Shown here in pieces: positions 29,022-36,344 of a stretch of DNA of 64,000 nt. The stretch covers positions 2,542,001 through 2,606,000 of the forward strand of contig NZ_PDJQ01000001.1 in the NCBI RefSeq assembly GCF_002563855.1. Reading direction: 5' to 3'. The notes below the pieces were generated by a model. That model was given only the letters and a program-made list of their open reading frames with translations. It did not search any database and had not been told where the DNA came from. This DNA is from Tepidiforma thermophila (lineage in GTDB: Bacteria > Chloroflexota > Dehalococcoidia > Tepidiformales > Tepidiformaceae). A program made the position numbers and the translations under genes. How positions within the stretch are numbered: the first letter of the stretch is position 1; the number at the start of each line of letters is the position of its first letter.

Positions 29022-30566
29022 ATGACCCGGATCATGACGAACGTGAGCGCCATCAACGGGCAGCGGAACCTTGCGCGGACGGGCCTGAAGATGGGGAAGA
29101 CGCTCGAGAAGCTGGCGAGCGGCTACCGGATCAACCGGGCGGCGGACGATGCCGCGGGGCTCGCCATCAGCGAGAAGATGCGGGCGCAGATCCGGGGCAA
29201 CAAGCAGGCGCTCCGGAACGCGCAGGACGGCATTTCGATGCTGCAGACGGCCGAAGGCGCGATGGACGAAGTGCACGCCATTCTCCAGCGGATGCGGGAG
29301 CTGGCAGTCCAGGCGGCGAACGGGACGTATGCGGACAACGGGCCGGAGCGGACGAGCATCGGCGAGGAGATCGTCCAGCTGCGGAAGGAGATCGACCGGA
29401 TCGCCTTCAGCACGGAGTTCAACGGCCAGAAGGTGCTGACCGGCGCGCTCTCGAGCGTGGCGGCAGGCGTGGCGGGCACCAACCTGGTCCAGGGCGAGAC
29501 CATCGGCTACGTGAATGCCGGCGCGAGCGGCACCCACCTGGTCTCGGGCGACTCGCTGCCGTCGGGCGGCACCCGCACGGTGACCTTCGCGACGGCGCCT
29601 GCTGGCGACTACGTGTTCGTGAACAACGGCGGGGTGCTGGAGATGCGGCTGGGCGGCGCGAGCGGGACGCTGGTGGCGACGGCAGCCGGCTTCGCCTCGG
29701 GCTCATCGATTGCGGGCGGCTCGGCCGGGTCGGTGGTGTTCTCGAACGGGTTCACGCTGACGATTACGACCGACCCGAACCCGTACAGCTGGACGAGCTT
29801 CCTGGCCGATATGGCGGTTGGCGGCAACCAGAACCTTTCGATTAACGGCCTGACGGCGACGACGATTACCGCGACGACGGCGCGGCCGCAGACCTACACG
29901 TTCACCTCGCCGGGTGCCGGGCAGCTGACGCTGACGGGCGCGGACGGGACCTCGCAGACGCTGACGATCACGAACATGGCGCCGAACGAGACGCGGACGC
30001 TCGACTTCAACCAGCTCGGGGTGAGCGTGACGCTGCAGACGGGGCCGGCGGGGCGGACGGCAGCGCAGGTGATCACCGACCTGACGGGGGCGACGAACAA
30101 CACCATCATCATCGAAGGGACGGGGAACACGTCGACGCTCCAGGTGGGGGCGAACGTGCCGGACACGCTGCAGCTGGAGTTCGTGAGCATGCTGAGCGAG
30201 AACCTTGGTTCGCCGGCCTACAAGCTGGGCGGGTCGTCGGGGCTGATCACGACACTGGGGGACCAGGTGGTGAAGACGATCCAGGACGCGCACAACCTGA
30301 TGAGCGCGCTGGACGGGGCGATCCAGACGCTGAACAGCCGGCGCGGCACGCTCGGCGCGGCGCAGAACCGGCTGGAGCACACGATCAACAGCCTGGGCGT
30401 TTCGGTGGAGAACCTGACGGCGAGCGAGAGCCGGATCCGCGATGCGGACATCGCCGAGCTCTCGAGCGACCTGGTGGCGCAGAACATTCTGCAGTCGGCG
30501 GGCGTGGCGGTGTTGGCACAGGCGAACCAGACGCCGCAGGCGGTGCTGAGGCTGCTCCAGAGCTAA
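29022..30566 (+). CDS. fliC: flagellin 1
   Basis: Filament subunit, 514 residues, with GGAGGAG 8 bases before the ATG. Conserved N-terminal D0/D1 (RIMTNVSAINGQRNLARTGL, then SGYRINRAADDAAGLAISEK) and C-terminal D1/D0 (LGAAQNRLEHTINSLGVSVE ... VLAQANQTPQAVLRLLQS). Residues ~145-400 form a longer, Thr/Gly-rich variable surface domain than in flagellins 2 and 3. Codons end mostly in G like other + strand genes. A terminator hairpin follows. Confidence 0.95.
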   Translation: MTRIMTNVSAINGQRNLARTGLKMGKTLEKLASGYRINRAADDAAGLAISEKMRAQIRGNKQALRNAQDGISMLQTAEGAMDEVHAILQRMRELAVQAANGTYADNGPERTSIGEEIVQLRKEIDRIAFSTEFNGQKVLTGALSSVAAGVAGTNLVQGETIGYVNAGASGTHLVSGDSLPSGGTRTVTFATAPAGDYVFVNNGGVLEMRLGGASGTLVATAAGFASGSSIAGGSAGSVVFSNGFTLTITTDPNPYSWTSFLADMAVGGNQNLSINGLTATTITATTARPQTYTFTSPGAGQLTLTGADGTSQTLTITNMAPNETRTLDFNQLGVSVTLQTGPAGRTAAQVITDLTGATNNTIIIEGTGNTSTLQVGANVPDTLQLEFVSMLSENLGSPAYKLGGSSGLITTLGDQVVKTIQDAHNLMSALDGAIQTLNSRRGTLGAAQNRLEHTINSLGVSVENLTASESRIRDADIAELSSDLVAQNILQSAGVAVLAQANQTPQAVLRLLQS

Positions 30567-30750: not shown

Positions 30751-30780
30751 CTAATCGTTCGTGACGGGGCCGATACCCAA
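30751..30780 (+). promoter_or_regulatory. sigma-28-like promoter of flagellin 2
   Basis: CTAA (30751-30754), 14 bases, then GCCGATAC (30769-30776), close to the enteric sigma-28 consensus TAAA-N15-GCCGATAA. GATACCCAA continues to 30780 and is repeated before flagellin 3 and at the right end of the window. The ATG is 77 bases downstream of this motif. Confidence 0.55.
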
Positions 30781-30856: not shown

Positions 30857-32050
30857 ATGTCTTCGATCGTCACGAACGTTGCTGCCCTGAACGGTCAGCG
30901 CAACCTCAACATCACGGCAGCGAAGATGGGGAAGGTGCTGGAGAAGCTCTCCAGCGGCTACCGCATCAACCGCGCCGCCGATGATGCCGCGGGCCTCGGC
31001 ATCTCCGAGAAGATGCGCGCCCAGATTCGCGGCAACAGCCAGGCCATCCGCAACGCCAAGGACGGCATCTCCATGATCCAGACCGCCGAAGGCGCCATGG
31101 ACGAGATCCACTCCATCCTCCAGCGCATGCGCGAGCTGGGCGTCCAGGCCGCGAACGACACCTACGACACCGCCGCGCGGACCTCGATCGGCACCGAGCT
31201 CGTCCAGCTCCGCCAGGAAATCGACCGCATCGCCAACGCCACCAACTTCAACGGCCAGAACCTCCTCACCGGCGCCCTCACCGGCACCCTCGGCGGCACC
31301 TCCGCCAACGACCTCGTCGTCAATGACGCCGTCGGCGCCGCCATCGCCACCGAGATCAATGTCGCTGGCGCCAAGCCCGGCACCTACACCTTCACCTACA
31401 ACGCCACCACCGACGAGCTCACCCTCACCGGCCCCAACGGCCAGGCGCAGGTCATCACCGTCTCCGCCATCGCCGCCAACGGCTCCCAGACCCTGAACTT
31501 CAACCAGCTCGGCATCTCCATCAAGCTCGCCTCCACCGCCGGCGAAACCGCCGACAACATCGGCGCCGCCCTCACCGCCGCCGCCAACGACACCATCGTC
31601 GTCACCGGCTCCGGCGCCGCCGCGCTCCAGGTCGGGGCGAACACCACGGCCTACGACGTCATGAACGTCTCCTTCAACGACGTCCGCGCCACCCAGTCCA
31701 CCGGCCTCAACCTCCTCTCCGGCGGCGGCGTCGACTGGACCTCCGCGTCCACGATTGTCGCCGACAATGCCGCAGCCCAGGCGTTCATCGACCAGATCGA
31801 TGCCGCCATCACCACCCTCAACACCCGCCGCTCCGACCTCGGCGCGGCCCAGAACCGGCTCGAGCACACCGTCAACAGCCTCGGCGTCGCCGTCGAAAAC
31901 CTCACCGCCAGCGAAAGCCGCATCCGCGATGCCGACATCGCCGCGTTGTCGACGCAGATGGTCAGCAGCCAGATCCTGCAGCAAGCGGGCACGGCGGTCC
32001 TGGCGCAGGCGAACCAGTCGAGCCAGGCGGTCCTGAGCCTCCTCCGGTAA
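30857..32050 (+). CDS. fliC: flagellin 2
   Basis: 397-residue flagellin with AAGGGGAG upstream of the ATG. D0/D1 blocks as in flagellin 1 but a shorter central domain (NVAGAKPGTYTFTYNATTDE). From about residue 24 to 360 it differs from flagellin 3 at only about seven positions, while the first 23 and last ~37 residues differ more. In the shared block codons end in C (GCC, ACC, CTC), opposite to flagellin 1 and other + strand genes, whereas both ends are G-ending. This looks like a recombined cassette. A terminator follows. Confidence 0.95.
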   Translation: MSSIVTNVAALNGQRNLNITAAKMGKVLEKLSSGYRINRAADDAAGLGISEKMRAQIRGNSQAIRNAKDGISMIQTAEGAMDEIHSILQRMRELGVQAANDTYDTAARTSIGTELVQLRQEIDRIANATNFNGQNLLTGALTGTLGGTSANDLVVNDAVGAAIATEINVAGAKPGTYTFTYNATTDELTLTGPNGQAQVITVSAIAANGSQTLNFNQLGISIKLASTAGETADNIGAALTAAANDTIVVTGSGAAALQVGANTTAYDVMNVSFNDVRATQSTGLNLLSGGGVDWTSASTIVADNAAAQAFIDQIDAAITTLNTRRSDLGAAQNRLEHTVNSLGVAVENLTASESRIRDADIAALSTQMVSSQILQQAGTAVLAQANQSSQAVLSLLR

Positions 32051-32078
32051 TCAGCCGGCCCGGCCGATAACGCCCAAG

Positions 32079-32116
32079 GCGCCCCTCCCGGTGACGGGAG
32101 GGGCGCTTCGGTTTGT
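32079..32116 (+). terminator. intrinsic terminator after flagellin 2
   Basis: 12-bp perfect stem GCGCCCCTCCCG / CGGGAGGGGCGC with GTGA loop (32079-32106), then TTCGGTTTGT. Confidence 0.8.
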
Positions 32117-32240
32117 CCCGGAGCGGGGACGCGGCGGCGCGTTCACCCTCCTGTCACCGGCCGTTCCCCAGGCCGCAACCGCGGCCACCTGTTTGCCACC
32201 CGGACGCACCCGTTTCGCCCCCGGATGCGGGTCTGCAACC

Positions 32241-32253
32241 GGGCGATACCCAA
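32241..32253 (+). promoter_or_regulatory. GGGCGATACCCAA element before flagellin 3
   Basis: Same GATACCCAA as at 30772-30780 and at nearly the same distance (72 bases) from its start codon. The -10-like GGGCGATAC is one base off the flagellin 2 version; no clear -35 is seen. Confidence 0.45.
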
Positions 32254-32324
32254 GCTGACACCACTGCCACCGAGGTGGCACCGGCCAGGAGGCCGGGGGA
32301 ACAGCAAAGGGGAGAACAGGTCAC

Positions 32325-33521
32325 ATGTCGTCGATTGTCACCAACATCGCTGCGCTCAACGGGAACCGGAACCTCGGGATCACGAACGCGAAGATGGGGA
32401 AGGTGCTGGAGAAGCTCTCCAGCGGCTACCGCATCAACCGCGCCGCCGATGATGCTGCGGGCCTCGGCATCTCGGAGAAGATGCGCGCCCAGATTCGCGG
32501 CAATACCCAGGCCATCCGCAACGCCAAGGACGGCATCTCCATGATCCAGACCGCCGAAGGCGCCATGGACGAGATCCACTCCATCCTCCAGCGCATGCGC
32601 GAGCTGGGCGTCCAGGCCGCGAACGACACGAACGACACCGCCGCGCGGACCTCCATCGGCACGGAGCTCATCCAGCTCCGCCAGGAAATCGACCGGATCG
32701 CCAACGCCACCAACTTCAACGGCCAGAACCTCCTCACCGGCGCCCTCACCGGCACCCTCGGCGGCACCTCCGCCAACGACCTCGTCGTCAATGATGCCGT
32801 CGGCAACGCCATCGCCACCGAAATCAACGTCGCTGGCGCCAAGCCCGGCACCTACACCTTCACCTACAACGCCACCACCGACGAGCTCACCCTCACCGGC
32901 CCCAATGGCCAGGCGCAGGTCATCACCGTCTCCGCCATCGCCGCCAACGGCTCCCTGACCCTGAACTTCAACCAGCTCGGCATCTCCATCAAGCTCGCCT
33001 CCACGGCCGGCGAATCCGCCGACAACATCGGCGCCGCCCTCACCGCCGCCGCGGACGACACCATCGTCGTCACCGGCTCCGGCGCCGCCGCGCTCCAGGT
33101 CGGGGCGAACACCACGGCCTACGACGTCATGAACGTCTCCTTCAACGACGTCCGCGCCACCCAGTCCACCGGCCTCAACCTCCTCTCCGGCGGCGGCGTC
33201 GACTGGACCTCCGCGTCCACGATTGTCGCCGACAATGCCGCAGCCCAGGCGTTCATCGACCAGATCGATGCCGCCATCACCACCCTCAACACCCGCCGCT
33301 CCGACCTCGGCGCGGCCCAAAACCGGCTCGAGCACACCGTCAACAGCCTCGGCGTCGCCGTCGAGAACCTCACCGCCAGCGAAAGCCGCATCCGCGACGC
33401 GGACGTCGCCCAGCTGTCGAGCGAACTCGCGAGCAAGACGATCCTGCAGCAGGCGGGCGTCGCGGTCCTGGCGCAGGCGAACCAGTCGGCGCAGGCCGTG
33501 CTGAGCCTGCTCCGCGGCTAA
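32325..33521 (+). CDS. fliC: flagellin 3
   Basis: 398-residue paralogue of flagellin 2 with AGGGGAG upstream. Central ~350 residues almost identical to flagellin 2 at protein and DNA level and C-ending in codon use. The C-terminal ~37 residues (VAQLSSELASKTILQQAGVA) differ at about ten positions from flagellin 2 and return to G-ending codons. Which of the three flagellins dominates the filament cannot be told from sequence. Confidence 0.95.
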   Translation: MSSIVTNIAALNGNRNLGITNAKMGKVLEKLSSGYRINRAADDAAGLGISEKMRAQIRGNTQAIRNAKDGISMIQTAEGAMDEIHSILQRMRELGVQAANDTNDTAARTSIGTELIQLRQEIDRIANATNFNGQNLLTGALTGTLGGTSANDLVVNDAVGNAIATEINVAGAKPGTYTFTYNATTDELTLTGPNGQAQVITVSAIAANGSLTLNFNQLGISIKLASTAGESADNIGAALTAAADDTIVVTGSGAAALQVGANTTAYDVMNVSFNDVRATQSTGLNLLSGGGVDWTSASTIVADNAAAQAFIDQIDAAITTLNTRRSDLGAAQNRLEHTVNSLGVAVENLTASESRIRDADVAQLSSELASKTILQQAGVAVLAQANQSAQAVLSLLRG

Positions 33522-33983: not shown

Positions 33984-36344
33984 ATGAGCGACCCGGTTCG
34001 GATCGGCGGGTTTTTCGCGACGTTCGATACGGAGGCGGTCGTCCAGCAGCTGACCGCCATCCGGATGCGGCAGGTGACGCTGCTGGAACGGAAGGGTGCG
34101 GACAACCAGGCGAAGAAGAACGCCGTCAATTCCGTGCAGACGGCGATGAAGGCGTTCCTCGAGCGGGTGAAGGCGCTCGCGGCGCCCCAGTCGGTGAGCG
34201 GAATGACGGCGACGGCGAGCGGCGCGGCGGTGAGCGTTTCGGCGCTGCCGGGAGCGCAGGCTGGAAGCTTCACCGTGAACGTCACCCAGCTGGCGACGGC
34301 CACGCGGCTGCAGGGCGCGCCGGCGGCGGCGGGGATCGATGCGACGAAGGCGATGAACCGGTCGAACTTCGGGACGGCGCCGACCAACGGGACATTCACC
34401 ATCGCCACAGCGAACGGGGGCTCGCAGACGTTCACGGTCGGGCCGGCGGCGGCGCAGACGGGCGTGGCGCTGCAATCGGCGAACATCGAGATGGCGGTGA
34501 CGAGCGGGACGTTCACCATTGGGACGGTGGGCGGCGGCACGCAGACGATCACCATCGATGTGACGACGGACACGCTGAATGACGTTGTGAATGCGATCAA
34601 CGGTGCCGGGGTCGGGCTGACCGCGAGCATCGTGAACGATGCGAACGGGCGAGCGAACCGGCTGGAGCTGACGTCGAGCAACGGGGACATCATCCTCGGC
34701 GGTTCAGGCGACAGCTCCAATTTCCTTTCTGCGATGCGTCTGCTGAGCACGCCCGCGGGGACAACGCGGACGGGCCAGGCGTTCACCCAGCAGATGTCGC
34801 TGAACGACGTGATTGCCGACATCAACGCGAGCGGCATCGGGGTGACGGCGAGCATCACGAACGACAGCTACGGGCGGCCGAATATCCTGACGGTGACCTC
34901 GACGCAGGGGAACATCTCGTTCGGGAGCGGGTCGGACACCTCCAACTTCCTTGCTGTGACGGGGCTGCTGACCTCGGCGCCGGGCACGACGCGGTCGAGT
35001 TCGAACCCGCTGTCGCGGCTGAGCACGTCGGCGAAGCTGCAGGATGCGGGGTTCAACGGCGGGGCGCCGAACCCGGGCGACCAGGCTATCGTGATCAACG
35101 GGGTGAGCATCAGCTACAACGCGGCGACGGACTCGCTTGCGGACCTCATCAACCGGATCAACGCAAGCCAGGCAGGTGTGACGGCGCGGTACGATTCGCT
35201 GACCGACACGGTGCGGCTGCAGAACAAGGCAACGGGCGACCTGATGCTGACGGTGGAGGACGCCCCGGGCGGCAACCTGGCGGCAAAGCTCGGGCTGACG
35301 ACGGGCACGCTCACGGCGGGGCAGAACGCGGAGTACAGCATCGACGGGGGGCCGACACAGCAGTCGGCATCGAACTCGGTTGGGTTCGGCGGGGTGACGA
35401 TGACGTTCAAGGAGACGACGAGCGCGCCGGTGACGGTGACGGTCTCGCAGGACACGTCGAGCGCGGCGAACGCGATCAAGGCGTTCGTGGCCGAGTTCAA
35501 CAACGTGATGAAGGCGATCGACGCGGCGACAAAGGCGGACGGGTCGAAGACGAATAACCAGTCGGGGCCGCTGAGCGGTGATGCGTCGCTGCGGCAGCTG
35601 AAATCGGACCTGCGGAGCATTCTGACGAGCCCGGGCACGAACCTGGAGGGCGGATTTGCGACGCTGTCGCAGATTGGGCTGACGTTCGGGGCGGTTGGGT
35701 CGGCCATCGGGACGACGAATACGCTGCAGTTCGACGAGGCGAAGTTTGCCGAGGCGGTGCGGACGAACCAGGCGGGGGTACAGGAGCTGCTGAGCCGGCT
35801 GAGCCTTGCGGCGACGCTGGAGCCGGGCGGGACGGGGTCGATTACCGGGATCTCGGGAACGTATGCGGGGACCGAGCCGGGGAAGTGGGTGATTACGGAT
35901 GACGGCGCGGGGAACCTTTCGGCGGTGTTCACGCCGGCGAACGGGGGCCCGCCGATTTCGGCTTCGGGGACGATTGCGCCCAACGGCTCGAATTCGGGGC
36001 TGATCCCGGGCCTGACGCTGACGGCGGGGCCGACCCTGCAGGCCGGGACGCACACCATCACGGTCGGTGCGACGGCGGAGAGCGTCATCCAGCGGCTGAA
36101 GCGGTTTGCCGAGAACCAGGCGGGCATTGGGGGGACGCTGGACAAGCGGAAGGCGACGTATGACCGGATCGCCTCGGACATTTCGGAGCGGATTGCGACG
36201 CTGGAGAAACGGATTGAGGCCGAGATGGAGCAGCTGCGGCGGAAGTTTGCCGAGATGGAGCGGGCGCAAGCCCGGAGCCAGAGCATCCTGGGGAACCTGC
36301 AGCAGCTGGCGAACCAGCTTTCGGGGAACAGCGGCCGAAAGTAG
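33984..36344 (+). CDS. fliD: flagellar hook-associated protein 2 (filament cap)
   Basis: Caps the filament and folds exported flagellin. 786 residues, longer than the usual 450-700. N-terminal FliD domain (RIGGFFATFDTEAVVQQLTA), then three copies of a flagellin-IN type repeat: about residues 190-260 (LNDVVNAINGAGVGLTASI), 270-345 (LNDVIADINASGIGVTASI) and 380-450 (LADLINRINASQAGVTARYD). C-terminal FliD domain and coiled coil (RIATLEKRIEAEMEQLRRKF). The repeats explain the extra length. Confidence 0.95.
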   Translation: MSDPVRIGGFFATFDTEAVVQQLTAIRMRQVTLLERKGADNQAKKNAVNSVQTAMKAFLERVKALAAPQSVSGMTATASGAAVSVSALPGAQAGSFTVNVTQLATATRLQGAPAAAGIDATKAMNRSNFGTAPTNGTFTIATANGGSQTFTVGPAAAQTGVALQSANIEMAVTSGTFTIGTVGGGTQTITIDVTTDTLNDVVNAINGAGVGLTASIVNDANGRANRLELTSSNGDIILGGSGDSSNFLSAMRLLSTPAGTTRTGQAFTQQMSLNDVIADINASGIGVTASITNDSYGRPNILTVTSTQGNISFGSGSDTSNFLAVTGLLTSAPGTTRSSSNPLSRLSTSAKLQDAGFNGGAPNPGDQAIVINGVSISYNAATDSLADLINRINASQAGVTARYDSLTDTVRLQNKATGDLMLTVEDAPGGNLAAKLGLTTGTLTAGQNAEYSIDGGPTQQSASNSVGFGGVTMTFKETTSAPVTVTVSQDTSSAANAIKAFVAEFNNVMKAIDAATKADGSKTNNQSGPLSGDASLRQLKSDLRSILTSPGTNLEGGFATLSQIGLTFGAVGSAIGTTNTLQFDEAKFAEAVRTNQAGVQELLSRLSLAATLEPGGTGSITGISGTYAGTEPGKWVITDDGAGNLSAVFTPANGGPPISASGTIAPNGSNSGLIPGLTLTAGPTLQAGTHTITVGATAESVIQRLKRFAENQAGIGGTLDKRKATYDRIASDISERIATLEKRIEAEMEQLRRKFAEMERAQARSQSILGNLQQLANQLSGNSGRK

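Follow-up and report, generated by a model that had tools for sequence, protein, structure and literature searches.

Tandem flagellin genes of Tepidiforma carry core codons opposed to the composition of their strand

The window, by which the whole analysed stretch of 64,000 nucleotides is meant, spans G000:C1:2542001-2606000 of the 2.74 Mb single-contig genome (G000) of a hot-spring Tepidiforma species (Chloroflexota, Dehalococcoidia). It contains a flagellar locus in which rpe, degV and recG lie upstream of three flagellin genes, fla1, fla2 and fla3, which are followed by a gene for a 112-aa protein, fliD and fliS, with a sortase-like gene downstream; recG was named from its sequence and the other named genes by Pfam. 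Flagellin 1 (29022..30566, + strand, 514 aa) contains the Flagellin_N and Flagellin_C domains and is encoded by G-ending codons, as is the contrast gene fliD (33984..36344, + strand), whose C/(C+G) is 0.18. Flagellin 2 (30857..32050, + strand, 397 aa) and flagellin 3 (32325..33521, + strand, 398 aa), also recognised by Pfam, are presumed to be the major flagellins. Each has a C-ending, apparently gene-converted core on the + strand (30946..31930 in fla2; 32415..33400 in fla3, with 97.7% nucleotide identity to that of fla2) and two ends outside the putative conversion tract. The 5' end of fla2 (30857..30945) has mixed or G-ending codons and groups by orthologue; the 3' end of fla2 (31931..32050) and the 5' and 3' ends of fla3 (32325..32414 and 33401..33521), all on the + strand, were delimited by codon composition and by comparison of paralogues with orthologues. 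An inverted repeat 3' of fla2 (32074..32111, + strand, I10) would form a terminator-like hairpin.

Promoter-like elements lie upstream of both fla2 and fla3. The first is a sigma28 (FliA)-like promoter consisting of CTAA and then GCCGATAC (30751..30776, + strand), which is conserved in relatives; the second, found by an upstream scan, is a sigma28-like -10 element, GGCGATAC (32242..32249, + strand), for which the -35 element is less clear. We take CGATAAC and CGATACC to be the -10 core of sigma28 promoters. Elements of this CGATAMC type precede the scanned flagellins of the fla2/fla3 type by 70-111 bases; among 539 sampled G000 genes, 5 have one between -120 and -60. The upstream scan revealed no sigma28-type element for fla1 in four of five Tepidiforma, and fla1 of T. 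flava has an isolated CGATAMC-type match at -47 with no -35 match. The full -35/-10 pattern was present upstream of a single gene, fla2, among 559 called genes, although this count is not independent, because the -35 pattern was chosen after the fla2 promoter had been seen. With the sigma28-like element as a proxy, fla2 and fla3 may be highly expressed; they are probably the main filament genes.

The composition of genes was measured mainly as C/(C+G) at 4-fold sites. The G000 genome was sampled in stretches, from which the skew map was built, and background genes were called by a purpose-written caller, so that individual starts and small genes are approximate. On the G000 chromosome, C/(C+G) is about 20% in + strand genes and about 85% in - strand genes, and throughout the window the values for single genes are 0.10-0.33 and 0.62-0.95, respectively; genes of the two kinds are called G-strand and C-strand genes below. 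A sharp switch of skew falls in the interval of about 0.4-0.66 Mb (G000:C1), which includes ParB (574 kb); a second switch at about 1.85 Mb is gradual, and dnaA, at 941 kb, lies away from both. The 16S gene and the ribosomal operon are on the C-rich strand, which, like the position of the sharp switch, suggests that this strand is the leading one. Departures from the local strand signature at 4-fold sites were also observed for further genes at G000:C1:661834-663858 and 670286-674391, and for a near-neutral block within a strongly C-skewed region, beside a flgL-like gene (G000:C1:1057416-1064634), which is possibly a recent import.

The reversed codon signature of fla2 and fla3 is real and extreme. 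Over the whole genes, C/(C+G) reaches 0.83 in fla2 (194 C:39 G) and 0.79 in fla3 (189 C:50 G), rising to about 0.9 in the cores; their codon usage resembles that of a C-strand gene. In a sample of 532 genes they deviate most from the local expectation (residuals of -0.68 and -0.64, with a robust standard deviation of 0.08; the next largest is 0.40). The GC skew of the cores is -0.28 and -0.27, against +0.1 to +0.3 around them, and at the four gene ends it is about 0 to +0.15, nearer to the local signature. The initial annotation had described this pattern of G-ending + strand genes, C-ending - strand genes and two exceptional cores with more local ends, and both the 4-fold counts and the skew bear it out; its count of 32 C and 13 G at 31261-31320 was reproduced exactly. 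Its extension of the C excess into the intergenic DNA is less well supported, since the fla2-fla3 spacer (32051-32324; skew -0.06, and -0.24 in the 100 bases it had named) is inside the spread of the other spacers between + strand genes (0.08 +- 0.10, with n of only 8), and the excess there is thus not significant.

Five relatives (G001-G005, of which G001 is T. flava) were assigned to the genus Tepidiforma. A readable fla2 is available in five species (G000, G001, G003, G004 and G005); in G002, fla1 and its neighbours are located at a contig edge, which leaves the whole fla2 unreadable. In all five, fla2 has a C/(C+G) of 0.80-0.83, compared with about 0.1-0.3 in the co-oriented genes rpe, fla1 and fliD; fla1 itself has 0.25-0.33 in Tepidiforma, and 0.18 in G002. 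In the assemblies of T. flava (G001:C1:469098-470287) and G005 (G005:C1:875029-876220), the reading frame of fla3 is interrupted, and intact pairs were therefore compared in three species, G000, G003 and G004.

In these three species the cores evolve in concert, the paralogues within a species being closer than the orthologues between species. The cores of fla2 and fla3 differ by 2.3% of nucleotides in G000, 1.2% in G003 and 0.0% in G004, which corresponds to 97.7-100% identity within species (distance 0.000-0.023), compared with 88-96% between species (0.037-0.121), that is, a difference of 4-12% and mostly of 6-12%. Over the first 30 codons and the last 40, the sequences group instead by orthologue, and there fla2 and fla3 of one species differ by 17-24%. 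The two genes keep a conserved order in Tepidiforma and their ends are orthologous, which argues against independent recent duplications. The earlier suggestions that recombination homogenises the cores while the ends are kept distinct, and that the cores of G000 differ at seven residues (a count made by eye), are in agreement with these data. In fla2 of G005, a G-type stretch nearer the 3' end resembles, by eye, the fla1 of the same genome, and may represent a conversion from fla1.

The initial annotation had offered, as one of two readings, a block moved from the lagging strand and then duplicated. More broadly, inversion or ectopic conversion could have brought the fla2/fla3 block, or its core, across from the other strand, or another organism could have supplied it, with the old signature kept in either case. 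The codon usage and substitution spectrum of the cores, which match those of C-strand genes, and the local signature at the gene ends would fit such an origin. However, the order and orientation of the genes relative to rpe, fla1, fliD and fliS, like the codon pattern, are the same in the five Tepidiforma species with a readable fla2, and no opposite-strand flagellin orthologue was found in the Tepidiforma relatives. A DNA search of three genomes with the core found no donor copy elsewhere, the strong matches being fla2, fla3 and the conserved ends of fla1 only, and the rest short and weak. The rate of C>G change at C sites is 0.20 in the core and likewise 0.20 in recG, a C-strand gene, and 0.40-0.86 at the C sites of fla1, rpe, fliS and fliD, some of these rates resting on small counts (the G-strand genes offer 7 to 38 C sites). 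The equality of the core and C-strand rates indicates that the composition is maintained and is not ameliorating, despite a 4-fold divergence of 0.2-0.35 in most comparisons of neighbouring genes. Furthermore, the flagellins of Tepidiforma and of the sister genus g8 cluster in the tree, and the flanking inverted repeats are only imperfect pairs of 17-26 nt, mostly G+C-rich and within genes, none of which is convincing. The C bias is also found in a skew-poor relative, described below. The strand-origin explanation is thus already largely refuted and we regard it as unlikely; the 'lagging strand' wording is doubtful in itself, the C-rich strand of G000 being probably the leading one, opposite in sign to most bacteria. 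The C-rich fla2 and fla3 in all five readable species look like the outcome of selection and repeated copying between genes, not of flipped DNA.

Three related candidates were rejected: an invertible, phase-variable cassette (no convincing inverted repeats and one orientation across five assemblies), flagellin variation from silent cassettes (no silent partial copies in the three genomes searched by DNA), and a recently inverted or strand-switched segment (no opposite orientation in Tepidiforma relatives and no decaying signature).

Outside the genus, G018, which represents another genus of the family, has almost no strand skew. Its flagellins, with C/(C+G) of 0.87 and 0.85, rank first and second of 408 sampled genes, the next having 0.74. 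A C bias without skew in G018, together with a C bias on the G strand in Tepidiforma, indicates that the bias is gene-specific and independent of the replication strand. Horizontal transfer of the G018 flagellins was rejected, as they form their own long branch, and none of the C-strand relatives in the sample is unusually close to them. Flagellins of G008, G010, G020, G021 and G026 are C-shifted relative to G-strand or neutral neighbours. On the C strand, the flagellins of G006, G012, G022 and G030 mostly contain slightly less C than the genes beside them, and so do those at the C-strand locus of sister genus g8. Elsewhere in the Chloroflexota there is little or no shift. Since the shift differs among genera, selection or another gene-level force must vary between lineages.

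A codon bias shared among highly expressed genes would be one such force, and the initial annotation had named the same C-ending pattern in highly expressed + strand genes as its sign. The outcome is mixed: a shift towards C is present in G-strand ribosomal proteins and EF-Tu (0.27-0.47), but it does not approach the size of that in the flagellins (0.8-0.9). Ribosomal proteins on the G strand have C/(C+G) of 0.27-0.41, and EF-Tu (0.45), NusG (0.46) and L7/L12 (0.41) exceed the local expectation, as would be predicted for translational selection; the ribosomal genes of G018 are also slightly C-leaning in most codon families. However, the shift in these genes is several-fold smaller than in the flagellins, so that EF-Tu would have to be under far weaker ordinary translational selection than flagellin. 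EF-Tu, moreover, has 0.42-0.47 on either strand: the two tuf copies (G000:C1:1551806-1553005 and 2679647-2680846), one in each strand regime, show 97% identity at 4-fold sites and an equal value of 0.45, and such homogenisation across opposite regimes would give an intermediate value without selection. The codon preferences of ribosomal proteins and EF-Tu mostly lean in the same direction as those of the flagellins, at a much smaller size, but the Glu and Lys choices disagree in G018, where GAA and AAA reach 0.68 and 0.47 in the flagellins and 0.27 and 0.08 in ribosomal proteins. GroEL provides no test of G-strand bias, because both Tepidiforma copies are on the C strand. As a full account, plain expression-driven bias is weak, and it appears the least probable of the explanations considered.

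Selection on the flagellin message itself is favoured by the synonymous sites of the core. In the closest species pairs, changes involving A or T amount to 0.03 per 4-fold site in the core, compared with 0.05-0.12 in recG, degV, rpe, fla1, fliD and fusA, and this deficit points to synonymous constraint and hence to selection. The predicted mRNA folding at 55 C is -0.184 kcal/mol/nt for the C-ending cores, versus -0.219 for the same protein coded in the manner of a G-strand gene. Selection on mRNA structure beyond codon composition was not detected, as the observed folding is no weaker than that of the cores' own permuted codons. In view of this result, of the GAA and AAA usage of G018 and of a flagellin bias far above that of other highly expressed genes, a message-level or conversion-level component may contribute.

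One form of such a component would be a process at the DNA level, tied to the recombining tract, that turns G into C on the coding strand, such as strand-directional mismatch repair in heteroduplexes of the tandem copies. The boundaries of the C bias and of the conversion tract coincide across Tepidiforma, both genera with an extreme C bias have near-identical tandem copies, and the Glu and Lys codons of G018 look like a base-level bias. Against this, the tandem cores of G030 are nearly identical yet carry no additional C bias, the C bias of G018 is weaker in the last 100 codons although the copies match over most of that stretch, and the scarcity of A/T-involving changes in the core favours selection. 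We therefore consider a process of this kind rather unlikely. A more specific version holds that gene conversion in the tandem flagellins has a strand direction of its own: heteroduplex repair would prefer C to G on the coding strand, and the recombining tract would settle at a separate equilibrium of base composition, contrary to the signature of the replication strand. This version seems improbable.

The preferred explanation, to which we assign a probability of roughly 0.6, is selection that favours C-ending codons and weak structure in the presumed major flagellins fla2 and fla3, with gene conversion limited to their cores spreading the result. Local mutation pressure would favour G on the coding strand, and selection on the flagellin message, acting on translation and/or through low mRNA structure, would hold the cores at C-ending synonymous codons. 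Conversion between the tandem genes may then keep the cores near-identical and spread the favoured codons. It would halt before the terminal ~30 and ~40 codons, which could thus have diverged and stayed nearer to the local strand composition. Several observations count against this account: the much smaller shift in ribosomal proteins and EF-Tu, the GAA and AAA preferences in G018, the slightly lower C content of flagellins at the C-strand loci of g8, G006 and G022, the resemblance of fla2 and fla3 to a C-strand gene in codon usage, and the folding of the cores, which is no weaker than after permutation of their codons.

The asymmetry of the replication strands in Tepidiforma is very strong: across much of the chromosome about 80-90% of C/G 4-fold sites follow the strand, and genes that resist stand out clearly. 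The two flagellins offer a clean case of strand mutation pressure, synonymous selection and gene conversion pulling against one another, and they illustrate that a reversed skew at the scale of a gene need not imply inversion. The pattern also suggests that fla2 and fla3 encode the major filament subunits among the three flagellins.

A literature search returned nothing on flagellins opposing strand skew. Flagellar cluster 1 of Tepidiforma, a genus shown to be motile with flagella, has been described as fliC, fliD and fliS (PMC10284905), a similar gene cluster in the same genus; in the available part of that article the word 'skew' does not occur, and codon usage and conversion were not encountered. 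The two-flagellin filament of Shewanella putrefaciens (FlaA/FlaB; PMC6299084) is similar in that several flagellin genes occur in one genome, one of which is plausibly more abundant. Further counterparts are the fla genes of Alteromonadales and the tuf genes of many bacteria, in which concerted evolution is recurrent and conversion can spread optimised codons (PMC6053082). There, as in Tepidiforma, paralogues within a species are more alike than orthologues between species; in Tepidiforma, however, the homogenisation stops before both termini, and the synonymous signature of the core is opposite to that of its strand.
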